From a virus: a stretch of DNA of 22,380 nt. The translations under genes were made by a program, and so were the position numbers. Position 1 is the first letter of the stretch. The number at the start of each line of letters is the position of its first letter. Positions 55 to 22,380 of this stretch are shown here, in pieces. The stretch lies in IMG/VR virus record IMGVR_UViG_3300047481_001922, positions 1-22,380 of that record. One strand, written 5' to 3'. Under the pieces are notes generated by a model. The model had not been told where the DNA came from, searched no databases, and saw only the letters and a program-made list of their open reading frames with translations.

Positions 55-1638
55 TTAGTCGACTTGTCTTCCGTCGCCCTGAGCATTTCGGCCTTCTCCA
101 GAAATATCTGGAGAATTTGCGGAACGTTCAGAATCTCTAGTTCTGGTTTTCCCTGCCTGTGCTCTTTGCTCTGCTGCTGCCTGTGGTTTTAATTCAACGA
201 CTTTATCTCCACCGTCCAATGGGACCATACCCATTCTAATTCTAACTTCATTAGGGGTAATTACCTGCATCCTTAAATATCGCTCATCGATTTTTGACTG
301 GGTATCTTCATCGGTCAAGGTTAGCTCGTTAAATTTAAGAAGTAGGGCGTCGGTCATTTCCTCAATAATTTTATTTAATTTCTTTTCTAAATTCATTTGA
401 GCTGGACGACATACTTGCTCTCTAAATGTTTTATCGGCATCTCTAGCCACCGCCAAATTAACTCCTTCGGGAGTTCCAATTTTATTAATTGGGACACGGT
501 GAGATAATAGAATTTCATCTCTATTAGATTTACGATACACGTTAAATGAAGACTCTTGAGTTCCTGCCTCAATTGGCTCCATCTTAAATTCAACCTTTGA
601 GTCTGGTGAATCTGGTGGAAGTGGGATATATAGAGATCTGTGATTCTTACCTCTTAGTCCTACTTGGAAAAACTCAAGCAATTTACGCTCAGACTCTGTT
701 GATAATTTAGCACCCTTTACAGTGATGATATATCTAGGCACCGCTTTATTCTCAAAGTAGTCAAGATTATACTTACCAGCAAACTCGTTTCCAGCCATAG
801 CATTTGAAGATGCGACAATATCTGGAATACCATAGTAGTTATTTGTTGGTGTGTATTTCTTTAGATGAATAATTTCATTTGGTCTATCTAGTCCGCCTGC
901 AATTGGGTTCTCTGTTTCTTGATCTCCAAAGTTACGAAAGTATACTGCCTTGCCATATAGCAATTGAATGAAGCCGTCACGAAGGCGACGCACACGCATT
1001 GTCTTTGCAGGGATATGTCCGATATATCCAATTCGTCCTGCAGATGTTCTGCCGATTTCGATATACCCATTTCCTGTTGCTTCAACATCTGTATAAGCCT
1101 TAATTAAAGTTTCTGTAAATGTCTCTTCTTCGTTGCATTGTTCTAGCCACTCGTATAAATCTTGACGTAATCTATTTAGCTTTCTGCGAGCACGATCTAA
1201 AGATTTTTCATCTGTGATGTTATCAAATGCTTCTTGTGTTTTACGTGTTTCAATGAAGTCGTGGCCAAGACCTACGATATTCGAAACCTTAGCGTTAATT
1301 GCTGCATAGTTATATGGGGAAATTTCGTAGATTTTTGAAAGATAATCTAAATTGTATGGTGGCTCGATAAGATCAAACATAGCATAGCCAGTAATTGCTT
1401 GTGCTAATAAATTCTGTTGTGTTTCAGTTCCTTCAATACCTTGGAATCTCTTTTGTAATTCTCTGCTTATCTTGCGACGGAATGCAGGACTTAGTCCTGA
1501 TATCTTTGTGAGCTCTTCCCCATTTACCTTAAATAAGTCTGTGCTTGTTTCTTGTCTTGGAGTATTAAACTTCATCCAGTCAGCAACATTAGATATTGCT
1601 ATCTCTTGTGAGTTGTCATCTTCTTCGTATTGAATCAT
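55..1638 (-). CDS. Phage portal protein
   Basis: This is the dodecameric ring protein at the capsid vertex through which DNA is packaged and ejected, and to which the tail attaches. The 527-aa product has the layout of the PBSX/HK97-type portal family (Phage_portal). There is a conserved start around PYNLDYLSKIYEISPYNYAA (about residues 94-113), a YYGIPDIVASSNAMAG segment near residue 270 corresponding to the family's YG(I/L)P region, a VPINKIGTP stretch near 385, and the C-terminal ITPNEVRIRMGMVPLDGGD near 465. The length is normal for the family. The C-terminus is a charged, probably disordered tail. The ATG shares one base with the upstream stop (TAATG), so it is probably translationally coupled to the 114-aa gene. 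A terminase gene, usual next to a portal gene, is not seen upstream. Confidence 0.93.
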   Translation of the reverse strand: MIQYEEDDNSQEIAISNVADWMKFNTPRQETSTDLFKVNGEELTKISGLSPAFRRKISRELQKRFQGIEGTETQQNLLAQAITGYAMFDLIEPPYNLDYLSKIYEISPYNYAAINAKVSNIVGLGHDFIETRKTQEAFDNITDEKSLDRARRKLNRLRQDLYEWLEQCNEEETFTETLIKAYTDVEATGNGYIEIGRTSAGRIGYIGHIPAKTMRVRRLRDGFIQLLYGKAVYFRNFGDQETENPIAGGLDRPNEIIHLKKYTPTNNYYGIPDIVASSNAMAGNEFAGKYNLDYFENKAVPRYIITVKGAKLSTESERKLLEFFQVGLRGKNHRSLYIPLPPDSPDSKVEFKMEPIEAGTQESSFNVYRKSNRDEILLSHRVPINKIGTPEGVNLAVARDADKTFREQVCRPAQMNLEKKLNKIIEEMTDALLLKFNELTLTDEDTQSKIDERYLRMQVITPNEVRIRMGMVPLDGGDKVVELKPQAAAEQRAQAGKTRTRDSERSANSPDISGEGRNAQGDGRQVD

Positions 1639-5184: not shown

Positions 5185-6732
5185 TTAGTAGTGACTCCAT
5201 TCGCCTACAGGAACAATTGTTGGGTAATTTGTAGACTGGTATCTTGTATCAAACGAATAGGTAAATGTTGATTTAAACAAGTCAATACTTGATCCGTTAG
5301 ATCTAGCTGTACCAGTAGACTCTACTCCATATTTTTCAAGTCCTCCAAGGTCTACAACATAAAGTCTCATTCCTACGTTTCCGTCGGCATTAGAATCTTC
5401 TGAGTGGAAAATAAACTTGTCTTTCTTAAAAGGAACTAGTTTTGCTCCCCAGGAAGTTGAAGCCCATTGACCAGTATAATATTTAGACGGATCTTTTGTA
5501 TTAAAGAATATTACGTTAAATCCAGTCTGATAGTAATAGTATGGTGCATATGCAGCAACCCAGTTATTGTCCCAAGTCTGCATGTATCTCATTCCGTACC
5601 AAGTATCTTGCTCAATACCGTATGAGGTTGTATTTCCAATACCATTTAGAGTGGCTAAAGTTCCTGATGTTGCGGAAAAGTTTGGGGTAAATGTTGCGTA
5701 ATGTGTTATGTTTGACGGAACAAATCTTGCAATTCCAACCATATTGTTATCTCCCATAACAATGTATGCTTTTCTACGTGATTCGTCATAGCTTTGTGAA
5801 CTATTTGCTTGCCATTGAAAATCGTTATAGTAGTAGTAAGCTGTTTGAGATAATGATGTTGGAGTTCCAGCATTTTTTGCCTCAAGCATGAACCTGTGTA
5901 GTGTTCCAACCTTATAGTTATAGGCATCTAGATCTCTATCTGCATTTGCATTCTTCCAAACGTGCAATCTGTAGTTGTTGGAGTTGTCTCTTGGCTCCAA
6001 TACAGCCAACGTGTTTGTTCTTGCATTGTAAGAAATTGCAGTATATCCAGTATTAAAAGCTGACCATGTTGCATATGTGCTTGACATATCAACAGTTTCT
6101 AATGGAGCAACGCCGCCTCTAGGATAAATTCTAAGTTGGCTATTTCTGTAATAAATTGAATTGTTTGGTCTATATCCAGACTTTTTTATAACCGTTCCAA
6201 AAAACGGCCAGTGGGATCTGATGTATTCTGGCATTTGTCCATGAGCAAATTGTCCATCTGATCCAGATGCCGCTTCATGGCCTGGCATTCTAACAAGCCA
6301 GTTTCCTTCATCTTGCTGATAGCATGTTCCTTTTACTGAGGAGTGTCCTGTGCCTCTGGTTCCTTGAGAAGTATTGGTATATCTCCAGTCTCTACCCCAG
6401 TCTTGACCTTCTGTATCATCTCTTAAGTATCCGCCATAAAGAGGCTGCATGTTGCTGTTATAAACTACGAATGCAGGCTCGTTTGATCTATTTGCATATG
6501 TTGCAAACGTTGGCAGTGGAGTTTTTGTAATAGCATTATTTTTAATGTTATCATCAATTAATTGAACTTGAGCAATTGATGTATTTAGGCTAAGAGCTGC
6601 TGATGATGCCAACAAAATCTGTAACATTTTGGGACTTGTGTTAAGCGCAACGTTAAGATTTGCAAATATTGATGCATCTAAATCTGGTAACGCTATTGAG
6701 GTACTGTTAGTAGAAATTGTTGTTATGGCCAC
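5185..6732 (-). CDS. Aromatic-rich tail fibre / receptor-binding protein (515 aa), paralogue of 7481-8989
   Basis: The 515-aa product is rich in Tyr, Trp, Asn and Ser. An N-terminal part of about 75 residues is followed by a long beta-rich body that begins PTFATYANRSNEPAFVVYNS. Landmarks shared with the 502-aa protein are NNYRLHVWKN (about 252), DFQWQANSSQSYDESR (about 304), TTSYGIEQ (about 368), WDNNWVAAY (about 387) and NADGNVGMRLYVVD (about 448). Repeated turns of this kind would suit a propeller or beta-barrel fold, but I recognise no named family. The start is GTG with an AGGAG site 7 nt upstream, and a TATAAT box lies 18 nt upstream. A role in host recognition is inferred from position and composition. 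Confidence 0.83.
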   Translation of the reverse strand: MAITTISTNSTSIALPDLDASIFANLNVALNTSPKMLQILLASSAALSLNTSIAQVQLIDDNIKNNAITKTPLPTFATYANRSNEPAFVVYNSNMQPLYGGYLRDDTEGQDWGRDWRYTNTSQGTRGTGHSSVKGTCYQQDEGNWLVRMPGHEAASGSDGQFAHGQMPEYIRSHWPFFGTVIKKSGYRPNNSIYYRNSQLRIYPRGGVAPLETVDMSSTYATWSAFNTGYTAISYNARTNTLAVLEPRDNSNNYRLHVWKNANADRDLDAYNYKVGTLHRFMLEAKNAGTPTSLSQTAYYYYNDFQWQANSSQSYDESRRKAYIVMGDNNMVGIARFVPSNITHYATFTPNFSATSGTLATLNGIGNTTSYGIEQDTWYGMRYMQTWDNNWVAAYAPYYYYQTGFNVIFFNTKDPSKYYTGQWASTSWGAKLVPFKKDKFIFHSEDSNADGNVGMRLYVVDLGGLEKYGVESTGTARSNGSSIDLFKSTFTYSFDTRYQSTNYPTIVPVGEWSHY

Positions 6733-7480: not shown

Positions 7481-8989
7481 TTATATCTTCCTGGTCCAGT
7501 GAGGCATCTGCATTAACACTGGATAATTTGTGCTTGTATAATCTAGGTCAAATATACCAGCCTGTTCGTTATTCTGCAAGCCTAGGGTTCCACCGTTTGC
7601 AATGGTTCCGTTAGTTGTTCTTCCCTCTAAAGCTCCTTGGGGATCGATAATATATAGTCTTAATCCTACGTTACCGTCAGCGTTGCCTGTAGAAGCATTA
7701 AACATAAACTTATCTTCCTTGTAAGGAACCAATTGGCATCCAGTAGAAGTATTTCCATTTTGTGCAATAAAATAATTTCTTGGATCTCTTGTATCGATAA
7801 AGTATACATTCATTCCGCAACCATAATAATAATATGCGTTATATGCTACTACCCAATTATTATCCCAGCTAATATTTGAGCGCATTCCGTAACGGTTGCC
7901 TTGCTCAATTCCATAAGATGTTGTTAGTCCAATTGTATTATATGATGTAGTTAATTGTGAATTTGCAGTATTAAAAGTTGCATAATTACTTGCGTTGGAA
8001 GGAACCATTCTTGCCATTCCAATAATGCCGTTATCTCCTGCAACTACACGCATACGATATCTTGATTCGTCATAATTTTGAGAAGAGTTAGCCTGCCACT
8101 GGAAATCATAGAAATTATATGAGGCCATGCCTGCTCCTTGACCAGCATCTAATAGTCCAAGCTTTGCTTCACGCAAAAATGCTGGAAGAGTTCCTGCGGT
8201 ATAGTTATCAGTGTTTAAAGACCTGTCAATTCCTTCGTTTTTCCAAACATGCATTCTATAGTTATTTGAACCATCTTTTGCTTGAACGCAAACAAGGGTT
8301 CTGGTTCTATCGTTGTAGCATGCTGAACCATAGGCGGTATTTCCACTCCAAGTAGAATATGTAGCGCTACTTAGATTAACTGTGTCGTAGTACCCTTCTT
8401 GAATTCCACGCTCCATAATTCTTAAAGTTGTATTATTATGGTACAGGGAAAAATTTTGTCTAACTCCCTTTTTACCAATTACAACTCCCCAAAAAGGAGC
8501 ATACGATGGCATTGTGTCTGGATTGTATGCTGTATATGTTCTATTACCAGCATTTGGTCTTACCATCCAGTGACAATCTGCTTGTTGATATGGAGTTGCT
8601 TGAACCCAATAGCTTGTCCAGCTTGATGATCCAAAATGTCCGTTTGTATAATTGTTACCTGTCCATGGAGCCCACAACTCTGAATCTGTGTGTTGGCTTC
8701 CTGCTGAAATTGGTTGAAGTCTACTGTTCCAAATATTCCAGAACGGTCTATTATCACGGCATGAGTATGTTGCAAATGTAGGATAGGGGTTTGAGCTAGG
8801 CAAGTCTGAAACAACTGCATTTGCATCAGCAATCGCAGCGTCAAGCTGTACTGTGCTTCCTGTAGCAGCTAGATTAGATCTAATTGATTCAACTGTATCG
8901 TTAGTAAGTATTGCAGATATAGAGTTATCTACAACAGCTTTATCTAAGCCAGGTAGAACAATCTGCGTAACTGTATTTGCAACTGCCAT
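7481..8989 (-). CDS. Aromatic-rich tail fibre / receptor-binding protein (502 aa), paralogue of 5185-6732
   Basis: The 502-aa product is collinear with the 515-aa fibre over nearly its full length. Shared elements include an N-terminal LPGLDKAV segment, PTFATYSCRDNRPFWNIWNS, NNYRMHVWKN, DFQWQANSSQNYDESR, TTSYGIEQ, WDNNWVVAYNAYYYY and NADGNVGLRLYIID. The two diverge most in loops and at the C-terminus. This copy has several extra Cys residues (YSCRDN, QQADCHW, YYYGCGMNV). The ATG has a good RBS (AGGAGA). It is followed by its own small acidic protein. A receptor-binding role is inferred. Divergence is too great for a recent duplication. Confidence 0.83.
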   Translation of the reverse strand: MAVANTVTQIVLPGLDKAVVDNSISAILTNDTVESIRSNLAATGSTVQLDAAIADANAVVSDLPSSNPYPTFATYSCRDNRPFWNIWNSRLQPISAGSQHTDSELWAPWTGNNYTNGHFGSSSWTSYWVQATPYQQADCHWMVRPNAGNRTYTAYNPDTMPSYAPFWGVVIGKKGVRQNFSLYHNNTTLRIMERGIQEGYYDTVNLSSATYSTWSGNTAYGSACYNDRTRTLVCVQAKDGSNNYRMHVWKNEGIDRSLNTDNYTAGTLPAFLREAKLGLLDAGQGAGMASYNFYDFQWQANSSQNYDESRYRMRVVAGDNGIIGMARMVPSNASNYATFNTANSQLTTSYNTIGLTTSYGIEQGNRYGMRSNISWDNNWVVAYNAYYYYGCGMNVYFIDTRDPRNYFIAQNGNTSTGCQLVPYKEDKFMFNASTGNADGNVGLRLYIIDPQGALEGRTTNGTIANGGTLGLQNNEQAGIFDLDYTSTNYPVLMQMPHWTRKI

Positions 8990-13671: not shown

Positions 13672-16600
13672 TTATGCCTGAGCTTCTGTCCAAGACAAAC
13701 GAGCTGAAATATCTCCAGATGTTAATCCTAGGTTTGTTGCGACAATTGTCAAAATATCTGGACCATTTGGGAATCCTGGTGCTTTGAAGTTTCCATCACC
13801 AGAAAGAATTGATGTTCCTAAGTCCTTAACCCTTGACAAATCGAAAGTAGTAGCTGAATAGTTTGTACCACCAGTACCGTCGGTATAGAAGGCAAACGCC
13901 TGGTCTCCACCTCTAATTGTTGTTGTTGGGCTAGTTACTGTAGAACCTGTTTTACCAGTGTTATCATGATAAATAACCTGTGCTAGAGATCCGCCAGGAA
14001 TTCTAATAGTTTCCCAATCATTTGGAATGTTTACTCCAGTAGGGAAAGATGATGGGTTATAAATACCCTGAATCAAGAATGCTCCCTGAGCAAGAATACC
14101 AAGTGAGCTGAGTGCTAGCTGCATGGTATTTAATGTTTCTCTTTTACCATAATTTCTTCCAATTCCATTGTCTGCTGAAGGGGCAATTCTGATTGAAAGA
14201 AGCGGTCTTGCAACTGCCGTGCTGCCAAAGCTCTGAGAAACAGATCCTTGTGGTGTAACAATACTTGTTGGAATTGTTGTACCAAATGGGATCGTGTACT
14301 GAACTGTATTGCTTGTTACTGCGCTTACTGTAAATGTACCATTAAATGTTGTACGCTCAGTAGCAGTTGCATTTGTTTGTACACGAGAAGTATATCCGTA
14401 GACTCCAGCAAATGTTATGTCAATCTGATTTGTTGCTGGAACAGCAGCCACGTCTCTTTGCCCATTCAAAACAGTAGTTATAGCTGTACTCTGAATTTGA
14501 CCATTTTGTAAGTTTTGAGAAAGTTGAGTATTTGCTAATGTTAGAGTTTGTCCTGCAACAAAGTTGTGAGCACCTTGAGTTGTAAGTCTTACGTTAGATG
14601 CAGAAGTTCTTTGAATGCTTGTTATAGATGCTACAGTGTTTACGTCAGAAACTATAACTGGATAACCTACCTGCAATTGATGCGGTGCAGCAGTTGTTAA
14701 TGTTGCAACTCCTGATGTTGTAGACTTTGAAGCAATCTTGGCAATAACTTCACCAGAACCTGCAACGTTTACGAATCTCTGCATACCAGCGGTAAAGATA
14801 AAGTTTTTATCATCATCAAACTTGCCGTCCATAATTACTGATGATCCCCAGTGTGAAATAACTGGAGCACATGTATTGGTAATTGTTTGAACTGAAACCT
14901 GTGCTATACCAGTTCCATTTGTAATTGTATTATCTGGAAGGAATGTTGCATTGTTTGAAGTTCCAGATAGCTGAACTGCCTGTCCTTGCAAATAAGAGGT
15001 TATTGGCTGTCTTCTAGCAATATTAACAGCATAACCTTGAGCTATTGAATTGTATTCTCTGTTTGTAATAGTGTAAGAACAAATTTCAAAATTGTCTGTA
15101 TCTTTAATAACCAAGTATCCTGAATCTGGCCAGAACTTAATACTGTCTACATACATAACAATCATTGTTGGTGTCAATGCAGATCCAACTATTCCTGAAG
15201 ATCCCGCCTTTAGCTTTGTGCTAAAGAATGGAGAGTTAATTGCCTCGTATCTTGCTGGAAGGTTTCCAGAACGCATGTAAGCTTCTGTATTTCTATTGTT
15301 ATTAGGCATCTTGTGGCAATAAATAATATTTCCTTCTGTGCCTCTAAATCCAAATCGAATAAAGCCTGCGCCATACCATGTATAGTCAATATAGGCCATC
15401 TGCATTAATGCAGGGTCTAATGTGTATCCTGAAGGGCCTTTTCCATCAAGCTTATCTACGTTCCATTCAGTCTGAGGAACTCTGATTTCTTGAGTTATAA
15501 CATAAGAAGAGTTTGTTAGAGAGTCTCCCTTATATGCTGGAGAAACCTTTAGATTAGTATCTGATGCAATCTCAATAATATTGTAGTTTGCTCCCTTAAT
15601 TACAATTTGGTCTCCAACTAACAACTGTTTTCTAAATCTTGTATTTATACCAGTAATTGTATTTGAAAACTTAGTTGCAGCAACTTTACCAAACAGATCT
15701 TTCTTAGTAAATCTTCTAACTGCATATAGATAATTTCCATCGTATTCTAGGAAGAATCCATTTTGGTCATTAAACATACCAGTTCTTGTTGCTGCGCCGT
15801 CCCACTTATAAACTGTAACTGAAACGTCAACTCCTCCTGGGAATTGATCTGTAGCACTTAGGTTTTGTGTAAGTGGCATTATGTACTGAAACTCATTTGT
15901 TCCCAAAACGTTTGTAACTACGAATTTGCCATTCCATGGATTATATGAACCTGCTGTAACAATTCCATCTACCTTAATTTTTGCACCTGGCTGCATTCCG
16001 TGATCTTGAATTGTGCGGACCGTTACAACCTGATTTCCGATTAAAACTCCTGCTACTGATATCTGATCTACGTCAAATGTCGGAGTAAATTTTACACCAG
16101 TTGAGAATTGAATTGACTTACCTGATTGGTATCTAAAGTGACGACGTGTCTGACGAATTACTCTTACTCCACAAACGTTATCTGTAGTTGAAAGAATAAC
16201 TCCGCCGTCATGTGGTCTGTGCTGAACATAACCATTTGGCTTTGCATAAAGTCCTACGCCATTTGTAATAATTGGATTAGAAACCTGAGATTCCATTTTA
16301 AATTTTAATTGGTTTGGAGAAGATACGTTAAATACTCTCCAAGAACCCTTGATTGAGCAGTTTGGATTCTGGCTTCCGATTAGGATTGGAATTCCTGGAA
16401 GAAGTCCATGAGCTGTGCTTGTTGTAATTGTAATTGTAGATTGTGCTGCTCCATCTGATTGAGCGGTCCAACCCTGTAATCCTTGAGCATCGCTTCCGCC
16501 TGGAATGTGAGCGTTATCATAAATTCCACCACCTGTAACAGATGTAAGGCTTCCGTCGGCAACTGCTCCGCTTACAATTCCGTTTGCTAAATATGTAAAT

Positions 16601-17232
16601 GTAAATCCATCTGCGCTTACTGTTTCAACTGGAAAAGTTCCTTCAGCCAAAGGATTTTTTGTGTCTTGAACTGAAACAACGTCTCCTGCAACAAGTTCTG
16701 TTGCTGGGCTAGAAACTACTACTGTTACTGTAGATCTTGGTGATACTCCGTCTCCAGTTACGCTTACTACGTCAAATGAGTTTCCGCCTGTTGCTCGAGA
16801 AAAGAATGATGGGTAATTTGATGTTAGGACTAAAGCTTCCCATTTAGAGCTCTGAATACCATATTCAAAGTCTGTATCCATTAAAGATTGTGGTGGAGCA
16901 ACTCGTAGCTTGTTAACAGCATCCATCAAAGGTTCTGTAAATGTTACTGTTTCTGCTGGCTCATCAACAATAATTGCAAGCTGGTCTGTTGAAGCCATTC
17001 CTGCACAATTATACTTAAGTGTAATTACTGTTTTTGGTTCATACCCAACCTCGTTATCAACTGCGAAAGAAACAGCGCCTAAGTTAGTGTCGGAGAAATT
17101 ATAGATAACCTTGCCTTGAGTGGTATTTGTAATAAGCATCAATCTATCTTGTCTTACTATTCTTGGAATAGTAATTTGATTTAGTGATGGATTAAATACA
17201 TAGTATGCGTGTTCTATTTGTCTTCTTGACAT
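13672..17232 (-). CDS. Large beta-rich tail / baseplate-type virion protein (1186 aa)
   Basis: The N-terminal 130 residues (IEHAYYVFNPSLNQITIPRI near 6; PPQSLMDTDFEYGIQSSKWE near 113) resemble large virion structural proteins of marine T4-like phages, as far as I can recall the family. After this come several copies of a beta module: a 'T..AHGL..G' start, then a GD/NG turn, then 'F.V..V.....F.Y'. These sit at about residues 166-216, 264-312 and 399-452, with at least two more near 845-1000. The middle (HRPHDGGVILSTTDNVCG, then RRHFRYQSGKSIQFSTGVKF) is a distinct conserved segment. There is no enzymatic motif. It probably sits at the tail tip or baseplate and carries adhesins coded around it. 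The RBS is AGGAGA. Confidence 0.78.
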   Translation of the reverse strand: MSRRQIEHAYYVFNPSLNQITIPRIVRQDRLMLITNTTQGKVIYNFSDTNLGAVSFAVDNEVGYEPKTVITLKYNCAGMASTDQLAIIVDEPAETVTFTEPLMDAVNKLRVAPPQSLMDTDFEYGIQSSKWEALVLTSNYPSFFSRATGGNSFDVVSVTGDGVSPRSTVTVVVSSPATELVAGDVVSVQDTKNPLAEGTFPVETVSADGFTFTYLANGIVSGAVADGSLTSVTGGGIYDNAHIPGGSDAQGLQGWTAQSDGAAQSTITITTSTAHGLLPGIPILIGSQNPNCSIKGSWRVFNVSSPNQLKFKMESQVSNPIITNGVGLYAKPNGYVQHRPHDGGVILSTTDNVCGVRVIRQTRRHFRYQSGKSIQFSTGVKFTPTFDVDQISVAGVLIGNQVVTVRTIQDHGMQPGAKIKVDGIVTAGSYNPWNGKFVVTNVLGTNEFQYIMPLTQNLSATDQFPGGVDVSVTVYKWDGAATRTGMFNDQNGFFLEYDGNYLYAVRRFTKKDLFGKVAATKFSNTITGINTRFRKQLLVGDQIVIKGANYNIIEIASDTNLKVSPAYKGDSLTNSSYVITQEIRVPQTEWNVDKLDGKGPSGYTLDPALMQMAYIDYTWYGAGFIRFGFRGTEGNIIYCHKMPNNNRNTEAYMRSGNLPARYEAINSPFFSTKLKAGSSGIVGSALTPTMIVMYVDSIKFWPDSGYLVIKDTDNFEICSYTITNREYNSIAQGYAVNIARRQPITSYLQGQAVQLSGTSNNATFLPDNTITNGTGIAQVSVQTITNTCAPVISHWGSSVIMDGKFDDDKNFIFTAGMQRFVNVAGSGEVIAKIASKSTTSGVATLTTAAPHQLQVGYPVIVSDVNTVASITSIQRTSASNVRLTTQGAHNFVAGQTLTLANTQLSQNLQNGQIQSTAITTVLNGQRDVAAVPATNQIDITFAGVYGYTSRVQTNATATERTTFNGTFTVSAVTSNTVQYTIPFGTTIPTSIVTPQGSVSQSFGSTAVARPLLSIRIAPSADNGIGRNYGKRETLNTMQLALSSLGILAQGAFLIQGIYNPSSFPTGVNIPNDWETIRIPGGSLAQVIYHDNTGKTGSTVTSPTTTIRGGDQAFAFYTDGTGGTNYSATTFDLSRVKDLGTSILSGDGNFKAPGFPNGPDILTIVATNLGLTSGDISARLSWTEAQA

Positions 17233-20156: not shown

Positions 20157-20753
20157 TTAGCATAGAGGTATCCATTTTTCTAAGTACTGCCCCTTTAGCT
20201 CAGATACTGGAAGTACCTGTATGTCTAAGGATTTAAAAGAGTCTAAATAAATAACTTTATTTCCAGCCTCAGAAATTACAACATCTCCTGGATTTAAAGA
20301 CAAAAATACTTCATTAATTTTTATACTGGAAACAGAGTCACCTAAATGCCATATTCCAAACAGAGCTGGCCTGCTTGCGCTAGAATGATCGTGCCAAAAA
20401 TCAGTTGGTTTATTGTCTGATAATGAAGAAGACAGGTAGTACCTATTTGCATCGTAGCTTAAATTAAACTCAGTGCATGACTCTTTTATTAAGCTAACAA
20501 ATTTTTTAAAAATTTTATTTATTTCAATGTCTGGGCAAGAAAGTATGTTTTTACTTTTATTTGGGAGCAGTATTTTTGGACTTTGACTTGTTCCTAAAAT
20601 TCCTGTAATTGGAAATTGATATAAAAAATCTTTTTTGTTTAACTGTGAATCAAAAATTTTATATACACCTTCTGAATTTATGTGTCCAGAATATATAAGA
20701 GTTTTTTTGTTGGATCTATACAACAAGCTTTCATTACGACTCAATGCTACCAC
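20157..20753 (-). CDS. Unassigned protein with a possible cupin / 2OG-Fe(II) oxygenase-like fold
   Basis: I chose the GTG at 20753 (198 aa) because AGAAGG lies 4 nt upstream. An ATG at 20810 would give 217 aa but overlaps the upstream gene by 77 nt and has no RBS. A TTG at 20744 is also possible. Numbered from that ATG, the C-terminal half has FWHDHSS (H140, D141, H142), then ALFGIWHLGDSV and LSLNPGDVVISEAGNKVIYL (near 171-190). HxH followed by a PGD strand is what a double-stranded beta-helix metal site would look like. The distal His expected in active 2OG oxygenases or cupins is not evident, so the protein may be inactive or something else. A role in modifying a virion protein is speculative. 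Confidence 0.6.
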   Translation of the reverse strand: MVALSRNESLLYRSNKKTLIYSGHINSEGVYKIFDSQLNKKDFLYQFPITGILGTSQSPKILLPNKSKNILSCPDIEINKIFKKFVSLIKESCTEFNLSYDANRYYLSSSLSDNKPTDFWHDHSSASRPALFGIWHLGDSVSSIKINEVFLSLNPGDVVISEAGNKVIYLDSFKSLDIQVLPVSELKGQYLEKWIPLC

Positions 20754-21291
20754 CAGGCCTTCTGTTAGCCCATACAAAAGGGTATACTGGATCTCTTGGG
20801 GGAAGAACATCTTTTACAGAAATATCAGATAACATTTCTTCTGGTTTTCTTGGAGGAATATGCTCTCCAAATGGTTCGTATGCTCCAATTATTCCTTTTT
20901 TTGTTTTTAAGCTGCTGTCTGTAGTCGTTTCTACTATTACGTTAAAAAGCTCGTACATTAGTGTTCTTAATATAGGTCCACTTACTGCTAAAAGGCCTTT
21001 TTTTCTGTGTACTGGATTTATATAAACTCTATCTACCGTTCCATCATGGTCTACAAGCAAATACATGTCTGGATATTCTTTTATAACAGAATCTGAAACT
21101 ATTAGGGTTCCTTCTGGATAAATGTCGTTAAAATAAAATTGACAAACCCATCTTGTTTGAATTAAAGATACTTCTGTTATTTGTAGCCACCAGCCAGATA
21201 ACTCTTTGGGCCAGGCTGAAAAAACGGGAATTATCTTATCTCCTGCTTTTTTTAAACTTATAATGTTATATTTAGATTGAGAAAGAGTCAT
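20734..21291 (-). CDS. GNAT-like acetyltransferase-related protein (185 aa)
   Basis: Residues 76-115 (MYLLVDHDGTVDRVYINPVH, then RKKGLLAVSGPILRTLMYEL) fit motif A of GNAT acyltransferases: a strand, then 'V.P..R.KGL' and a helix. The acetyl-CoA pyrophosphate loop usually reads (R/Q)xxGx(G/A). Here it is RKKGLL, so the second Gly is missing and catalysis is uncertain. Aromatic residues are frequent before the motif (GWWLQITE). The C-terminus is Pro-rich (PPRKPEEM, LPPRDPVYPF). The ATG lies 20 nt inside the end of the Hint-protein gene, with no RBS, so translation is probably coupled to it. That link suggests the two products act together. Confidence 0.58.
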   Translation of the reverse strand: MTLSQSKYNIISLKKAGDKIIPVFSAWPKELSGWWLQITEVSLIQTRWVCQFYFNDIYPEGTLIVSDSVIKEYPDMYLLVDHDGTVDRVYINPVHRKKGLLAVSGPILRTLMYELFNVIVETTTDSSLKTKKGIIGAYEPFGEHIPPRKPEEMLSDISVKDVLPPRDPVYPFVWANRRPGGSIES

Positions 21292-22380
21292 GAGTTAACA
21301 TTTTTTCAGTAAAGAACATATCATAGGGTTCGCAGTCTATTGATATGGTTTCATGATTAACTGGTATTAATTCAAACAAATCTACTATCTCCCAAGTATT
21401 TGTCTCTGGGTCAAAAATGTAATCAGAATTTTCAACAATTTGATCGGACAGAACAAATTTTGCCACATTATCTCTTTTTATAAGAATCCAGTGGTATTGA
21501 GAAAATATATCGCCATTAATAATAACAGCCATATTTCCAATTCTTCTTGTTATATTTACAATTGTTGTATGAACAAATTCTATGTTTGGATTTTCGCTTG
21601 TCCAAGCAAGTGCCTGCTCTGTGACACCTTCGATTGGGTCATATGGAAACCCTTCTATGTCTGCAGAAAGCAACACGTCTCCTACATTTAAGTTTTCAGC
21701 ACGAACAAGTCCAGATGGTGTTTTAATTAATGTTGATACACCCACAGACTTTGCAGGCGGTTCGAAGTCAAAAGGTGGCAAATCAATTGGTGGAAATGAT
21801 GGTGGATCATCTGGCGGTGGAGCAGATGGTGGATCATCTGGTGGATCATATGGTGGATCAGATGGCGGTGGACCAGATGGTGGTGGATCTGCTGGTGGAC
21901 CAGATGGTGGTGGTGTTCCTCCTGATCCTCCGCAACCCCTTGAGTTTGATTCGATAAGGTTGCCCCAATACTGAAACTGTCCTCCTGAAGGACAGCCTGC
22001 TGTAGAACTGCTTCCGTCGCTACAAGATCTTGAATATGCAGAATAATATCCTTCATAAACATCTTCACCGTTGCAAGTAGGGGACATGGTTACGTACCCA
22101 ACACACTCTCCGCATGTAACTGTTGGTGGACCAGATGGCGGTGGACCAGATGGCGGTGGACCAGATGGTGGTGGATCTGCTGGTGGACCAGATGGTGGAG
22201 CAGATGGCGGTGGAGCCACGTAAACATAATAACTAAAAGATACTACGTCTCCAATTTTAATAGTAGTTCCGCTTGCAACTCCTTGACTTTCAACTGCTCC
22301 ATCTAAATTTATATTCTGAACACTAGTTGCAGTTTCGGACCAGGTAAGTCCTAATGACTCTAAAAGTGTTTTTGCTTGTG
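21272..22380 (-). CDS. Partial PASTA / proline-rich / Hint-domain virion protein
   Basis: The reading frame is open to the right edge, so the N-terminus is missing. The first visible segment (QAKTLLESLGL ... GAVESQGVASGTTIKIGDVV) is a PASTA domain, a fold that in bacteria binds peptidoglycan. Then follow a Pro-rich linker (22121-22216), a six-Cys module of about 68 residues (TCGEC ... RGCGG), a second Pro-rich linker (21752-21916), and a C-terminal Hint domain (21287-21748). The Hint domain shows GVSTLIKTPSGLVRAENLNV with GD following, then SQYHWILI, and ends in MFFTEKMLTHD. Hint domains are the self-cleaving or splicing fold of inteins. Only SFSI follows it. The protein may be a tail-tip or fibre component that is autoprocessed, which is inference. 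Confidence 0.8.
   Translation of the reverse strand, partial: QAKTLLESLGLTWSETATSVQNINLDGAVESQGVASGTTIKIGDVVSFSYYVYVAPPPSAPPSGPPADPPPSGPPPSGPPPSGPPTVTCGECVGYVTMSPTCNGEDVYEGYYSAYSRSCSDGSSSTAGCPSGGQFQYWGNLIESNSRGCGGSGGTPPPSGPPADPPPSGPPPSDPPYDPPDDPPSAPPPDDPPSFPPIDLPPFDFEPPAKSVGVSTLIKTPSGLVRAENLNVGDVLLSADIEGFPYDPIEGVTEQALAWTSENPNIEFVHTTIVNITRRIGNMAVIINGDIFSQYHWILIKRDNVAKFVLSDQIVENSDYIFDPETNTWEIVDLFELIPVNHETISIDCEPYDMFFTEKMLTHDSFSI
21752..21916 (-). repeat. Second Pro-rich repeat tract (PPSGPP / DPP units)
   Basis: The tract codes PPPSGPPADPPPSGPPPSDP and then more acidic PPYDPPDDPP units up to the Hint domain. The plus strand shows tandem GGTGGACCAGATGGC / GGTGGATCATCTGGC variants of 12-15 bp. 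One stretch of about 45 bp is nearly identical to part of the first tract. Confidence 0.8.
22121..22216 (-). repeat. First Pro-rich repeat tract (PPSGPP units)
   Basis: Tandem 15-bp units reading GGTGGACCAGATGGC on the plus strand code PPSGP repeats between the PASTA domain and the Cys-rich module. The units are close to identical, which favours slippage or recombination with the second tract. Confidence 0.8.

Follow-up and report, generated by a model that had tools for sequence, protein, structure and literature searches.

What would a self-processing domain do at the end of a phage protein that begins with a wall-binding module? The question is raised by a gene of an aquatic phage, at the right end of the window, i.e., the complete 22,380-base virus record IMGVR_UViG_3300047481_001922, which ends at the window's edge. 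The reading frame runs on the minus strand from 22378 to 21272 (368 aa), its 5' end is open at the record's end, and it encodes, in order, a PASTA domain, a proline-rich linker, a six-cysteine module, a second proline-rich linker and a Hint domain. A first-pass annotation, which did not state the strand, had read both the open frame and this domain order from the DNA alone, and both are borne out, the order by Pfam, a profile search, AlphaFold2 and a close relative. The features are:

22217..22378, minus strand: PASTA domain, C-terminal ~54 residues (Pfam PF03793; the record stops short of the first ~12 profile positions)
22121..22216, minus strand: first proline-rich linker, with PPPSGPP repeats (from the translation; varies among relatives)
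21923..22120, minus strand: six-cysteine module (Cys 89, 92, 102, 119, 129 and 149)
21749..21922, minus strand: second proline-rich linker (from the translation)
21287..21748, minus strand: Hint domain, residues 211-364 (AlphaFold2, structure matches, Foldseek)
20734..21291, minus strand: gene after the Hint gene, possibly a GNAT acyltransferase, overlapping the Hint gene by ~20 bases

Because the window is the entire record, the 5' end of the gene was taken from relatives. The same frame is present in five close relatives (L002-L006), and in L003-L006 it continues to a start codon ~25-32 codons before the window's first visible residue, with none of the stops or frameshifts just beyond the edge that would have counted against the annotation. 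The complete architecture, including the six-cysteine module, recurs in the uncultured viral contig L002 (70% identity to the window), viral metagenomes being where the annotation had proposed to look for it, and since L002 repeats the whole of it, the architecture is no accident of assembly or reading. Several relatives likewise have a gene of the 20734..21291 type after their Hint gene; its GNAT match comes from one relative only (E 0.0018, under the Pfam cut-off), and a Pfam search with the window's copy returned no family match.

The PASTA domain was confirmed by Pfam, as the annotation had suggested checking. On the window's 55-residue piece alone PF03793 scored 23.8 bits against a cut-off of 23.2 bits (E 4.3e-5), and within the whole window protein 18.6 bits, under the cut-off. 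In complete relatives all four members match, with Pfam E values up to 9e-9 and 32.7 bits in L003, and there is a PDB match to the PASTA kinase 3py9 (E 2e-5). These relatives have just ~15-20 residues, mostly basic, ahead of PASTA, which is therefore the N-terminal domain; judged by eye, no signal peptide is visible in those residues. From what is known of its family, the domain would bind peptidoglycan or stem peptides.

For the six-cysteine module, searches found no Pfam family, no match in cultured phages and among viral contigs one further copy only, in L002 (75% identity, all six cysteines retained). Other family members carry cysteine-rich modules, and such a module moves independently, since L008 and L031 share 90% identity there but 55% each in PASTA and Hint; L008 and L007, in turn, are close in Hint (87% identity) and in PASTA (80%) but share 45% in the Cys module. 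The linkers of the family are built of GPP, NPGF, FGAFGAF, HYGGF or NYGNY repeats. In several relatives 2OG-Fe(II) oxygenases (PF13640, E 2e-15 to 3e-6) are encoded shortly downstream of the Hint gene:

L002:3183-3740: 2OG-Fe(II) oxygenase gene
L049:6500-7069 and 8185-8763: two 2OG-Fe(II) oxygenase genes
L106:4547-5266: 2OG-Fe(II) oxygenase gene

This gene order suggests that the proline-rich linkers might be targets of hydroxylation.

The identity of the C-terminal domain emerged from profiles and predicted structure. Single-sequence Pfam searches gave weak PT-HINT and Hint_2 matches (E ~0.03, under every cut-off), and matches of the segment to Kelch were rejected as a 16-residue chance likeness. 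A profile built from 45 relatives found 2lwy, an intein-like domain of Clostridium thermocellum, with an E value of 1.2e-6, and more weakly the gp41-1 intein (E 0.009) and a PolB1 intein (E 0.016). The AlphaFold2 model from 75 sequences, which supersedes one from 11 sequences (pLDDT 62.9), reached a pLDDT of 94.3 and a pTM of 0.89. When it was compared with solved structures, all 50 matches listed were Hint proteins (Z 13.8-18.5 over 118-138 residues), the closest of those listed being BIL2 6y75 (Z 18.5, rmsd 1.6, 135 residues), with 2lwy at Z 17.4 and the Hedgehog structures 1at0 and 6tyy at Z 16.7-16.9 (1at0 at Z 16.9); Foldseek also matched the model to 2lwy (E 5e-7). Together the profile, the model and its structure matches make this, beyond reasonable doubt, a Hint domain, and the structure prediction proposed by the annotation upholds its claim.

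To establish which parts of the active site are kept, conservation was scored over 108 distinct sequences of the domain, the most divergent being ~31% identical to the window's. The positions that matter are:

21746..21748, minus strand: Ser211, predicted to act as catalytic residue 1 in an N-O acyl shift; Ser in 108/108
21491..21493, minus strand: His296, block-B His; 108/108, profile-aligned with the block-B His of the 9hth intein
21320..21334, minus strand: block F signature C-E-P-Y-D, residues 349-353; C, E, P and D in 108/108, Y in 106/108
21287..21289, minus strand: Asp364, at the terminal-Asn position; D in 101, N in 5 and E in 2 of 108
21275..21286, minus strand: four residues S-F-S-I after the Hint domain; the +1 Ser in 51/108 only

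Structure matches pair Ser211 (model residue 4) with residue 1 of inteins and residue 258 of Hedgehog, and Asp364 (model residue 157) with residue 440 of Mtu RecA intein structures, model residues 4..157 covering chain residues 1..440 of the latter. In the profile alignments, too, Ser211 lines up with intein residue 1, His296 with the block-B His and Asp364 with the position of the terminal Asn. The block-B motif reads S-Q-Y-H in the window, and most family members have SxxH or TxxH; thirteen positions are invariant in all 108 sequences (Ser1, T216, G233, T271, H296, I347, C349, E350, P351, D353, F355, T357 and L361). The tree of the domain has branches of >0.5 changes per site, and dN/dS values of 0.03-0.27 (pairs with dS >0.5) indicate purifying selection.

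The C-terminal side is looser. The penultimate position, 363, is H in 46, F in 34 and Y in 23 of the 108, and the +1 residue, Ser in the window, is C, S or T in 60/108 and as such not conserved as a nucleophile. All 46 relatives with a penultimate His, which form the window's own clades, keep a potential +1 nucleophile; the co-occurrence of penultimate His and +1 Ser (46 of 46) was dropped as evidence, since the tree needs just two His changes (sign test p 0.5). Terminal Asn occurs in five sequences, none of them with a penultimate His, and a small clade (L103, L104, L109, L114 and L115) ends in Tyr-Asn, not His-Asp, thus with the canonical terminal Asn. Assignment to class 3 inteins, which use the block-F Cys as nucleophile, was rejected, since the profile alignment sets C349 three positions past F:4, a position that is Ser in this family, and since Ser1 is retained.

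The architecture, with which the annotation was unacquainted, does appear to be undescribed in papers, but it is not unique, being one member of a large modular family. Two scans of uncultured viral contigs gave 209 and 240 stretches encoding Hint relatives (the lists overlap), so that the domain occurs in more than 200 such contigs, always at the extreme C terminus; in all but three of the 108 sequences 2-12 residues follow position 364, usually 3-7 before the stop. Among 84 representative full-length proteins the N-terminal modules were fn3 in 33, PASTA in 28 and collagen in eight. The family is thus a constant Hint domain behind exchangeable adhesin modules (PASTA, Fn3, collagen, Cys-rich). 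A scan of bacterial genome contigs with two short peptide patterns found no relative, a result that leaves room for a prophage or host version. One viral contig, IMGVR_UViG_3300032326_001363 (L140 and L156), carries two Hint-ended adhesin genes ~12 kb apart, with N-terminal parts that look Fn3-like by eye.

Distant relatives also occur in isolated jumbo phages, where a homologous Hint domain ends the collagen-like tail protein of Dickeya AD1 (AXG67152.1), Yersinia fHe-Yen9-02 and Alcaligenes Afa-NA1. These cultured jumbo-phage relatives also carry a second gene, annotated as 'putative large intein domain protein', which lies downstream of the Hint-ended tail gene at a distance of a few genes (L172:5116-6342 and L173:5003-5399).

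In the window the Hint gene sits among tail-fibre genes, and the genes of the window are structural, including Fn3 and collagen-like tail genes; a similar tail-fibre set flanks the Hint gene in L004 and L006. This neighbourhood, together with the annotation of distant relatives, points to a tail location. The annotation's 'virion protein' accordingly gains partial support from the gene neighbours and from the distant version at the C-terminus of jumbo-phage tail proteins, as far as a predicted tail location goes. Since the window's portal is ~60% identical to that of Streptomyces siphophages, the host is probably an actinobacterium, a group whose wall kinases and PBPs carry PASTA domains. Judging by its proteins, the phage is apparently a mosaic, with a 1186-aa structural protein (13672-17232, minus strand) resembling virion proteins of T4-like cyanophages (36-39% identity) beside the Streptomyces-like portal (55-1638, minus strand). 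Two ~500-aa proteins in the tail region (5185-6732 and 7481-8989, minus strand) look like paralogues by eye and are possibly alternative receptor-binding proteins.

The reading that we consider best, with a probability of roughly 55%, is that an actinobacterial phage makes this protein as a modular tail adhesin, from which the Hint domain at the C terminus cuts itself free. The N-terminal PASTA domain would attach to peptidoglycan or stem peptides, while the proline-rich linkers and the swappable Cys-rich module would form a stalk that differs between phages. Once the Hint domain has folded, the bond before Ser211 would shift to an ester (an N-O acyl shift, with His296 assisting), which water or a small nucleophile would resolve, releasing the domain. 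The adhesin would so mature with a free C terminus, and Hint would serve as a C-terminal maturation domain using intein-like (BIL) chemistry. Of this account the analysis shows the domains, the fold, where the catalytic positions fall, their conservation and the exchange of modules, while wall binding, tail location, host and the cleavage with its timing are inferred. That hundreds of uncultured phages have this Hint domain behind exchangeable adhesin modules suggests a self-processing step, so far undescribed, in making or using a phage adhesin.

The annotation had left it at 'cut or spliced'. The active-site pattern fits self-processing (residue 1 and block-B His in 108/108, dN/dS 0.03-0.27) and leans towards a cut, because the +1 nucleophile is not kept across the family and Asp364 has just four residues after it. 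The invariance of Ser1, the block-B His and C-E-P-x-D, set beside a variable +1 residue and penultimate His, matches cleavage at the N-terminal junction or acyl transfer better than splicing. Hedgehog proteins use only the first step of intein chemistry, and BIL domains, which lack the +1 nucleophile, mostly cleave (PMC7664689, PMC7765530); given this behaviour and the full conservation of first-step residues beside a loose splicing side, we rank self-cleavage before Ser211 above acyl transfer, and acyl transfer above splicing. Against self-cleavage it counts that His-Asp-Ser is retained in the window and its clade, where splicing is thus possible, that an Asp instead of the Asn may slow down or prevent the C-terminal chemistry, and that a role in binding or folding could also explain such strong conservation.

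Hedgehog-like acyl transfer, in which the Ser211 ester is attacked by an amine or hydroxyl belonging to another virion protein, to a sugar or to the host wall, so that the adhesin is joined covalently and Hint leaves, is the best placed of the alternatives, though unlikely. It needs the same conserved N-terminal chemistry and can dispense with the C-terminal one, and both Hedgehog structures are among the matches listed, but no acceptor-binding region follows the domain and no acceptor is known. More doubtful than any alternative weighed here except the last is the bolder proposal that Hint passes the PASTA adhesin to a nucleophile of the virion or bacterial wall, a covalent one-shot coupling common to hundreds of adhesin-swapping aquatic phages.

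Next, and also improbable, comes a Hint domain that no longer reacts and serves as a structural cap or binding domain. A fold by itself shows no function, the C-terminal motif has diverged and Ser1 replaces Cys1; however, an inert cap need not keep both Ser1 and the block-B His in every sequence across such long branches. Protein splicing, which would excise Hint and join the adhesin to S-F-S-I, we rate slightly lower again. The window has Ser1, SxxH, His-Asp and Ser+1, and inteins that end in Asp reportedly splice (Amitai et al. 2004, as cited in PMC4031507), but across the family the +1 nucleophile and the penultimate His are kept far less strictly than Ser1 and the block-B His, and a four-residue C-extein offers little to join. 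That the domain is a mobile intein of the ordinary kind, or releases a toxin as a pretoxin-type Hint would, is scarcely credible despite the weak PT-HINT and Hint_2 matches, as it is contradicted by the architecture in 108 sequences, with no homing endonuclease, no interrupted conserved host protein and no domain after Hint.

Returning to self-cleavage, its interest lies in where it would place Hint domains. Self-cleaving tail adhesins are known with protease-like C-terminal chaperones (endosialidase-type Peptidase_S74). If our reading is true, a Hint domain with Ser1 and terminal Asp in the chaperone's place is a second adhesin-maturation chemistry, and intein-like domains gain a concrete job, namely to process or couple an adhesin that varies between phages. 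The size of the family, its clear active site and its relatives in cultured jumbo phages make the question testable. PASTA, Hint and tail adhesins are each already known, and variable proteins with intein-like domains are known too. A search of the literature, which covered few subscription journals, found tail adhesins with Hint or PASTA nowhere described; the joining of PASTA and Hint, the Ser1/Asp/C-E-P-Y-D variant and the extent of the phage family all appear to be undescribed in the papers searched, although UniProt has members under automatic names. One such entry is A0A6J5NY54, a 301-aa 'PASTA_pknB domain containing protein' of an uncultured Caudovirales phage, which resembles the window protein in PASTA by name and in Hint fold by structure match (TM 0.87) and whose automatic annotation names PASTA only.

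Among known systems the window's domain has what defines the Hint superfamily, i.e., the fold, a nucleophile as first residue (Ser211) and a block-B His (His296). It departs from inteins in lying C-terminal behind a variable partner and not inside a conserved host protein restored by splicing, and the family lacks their conserved +1 Cys/Ser/Thr. From the pretoxin Hint (PF07591) it differs in that nothing follows the domain, and it scores 15 bits against a cut-off of 27.7. The Hedgehog C-terminal autoprocessing domain (1at0) shares the fold, the C-terminal position and the need to keep only the first step, but the window has Ser in place of Cys258 and no sterol- or adduct-recognition region after Hint. 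In Alexandravirus-type jumbo phages (PHROG 38766, 'virion structural protein', of which 25 of 84 members match the Hint family at E <1e-3) the homologous domain also ends a modular tail protein, but the N-terminal part is collagen-like and other, without PASTA, and the Hint domain has the canonical Cys1, THEH or TPEH (TxxH) and His-Asn, then T, V or M at +1. The nearest likeness is to BIL domains (2lwy; Tetrahymena thermophila BUBL1 BIL2 6y75), which are the best structure and sequence matches and which also sit in variable, non-conserved proteins without a fixed +1 nucleophile; the phage family differs from them, in nearly all members, in Ser1 for Cys1 and Asp for the terminal Asn, and in having its own C-E-P-Y-D block F and in occurring, without exception, at the very C-terminal end of phage proteins. 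A-type BIL domains end in His-Asn (PMC7765530), whereas the window's Hint ends in His-Asp. B-type domains have the intein motifs except the C-terminal one (PMC7765530); the window's Hint keeps the A and B motifs and has an altered C-terminal motif, which by that published description makes it at most a candidate for the class.
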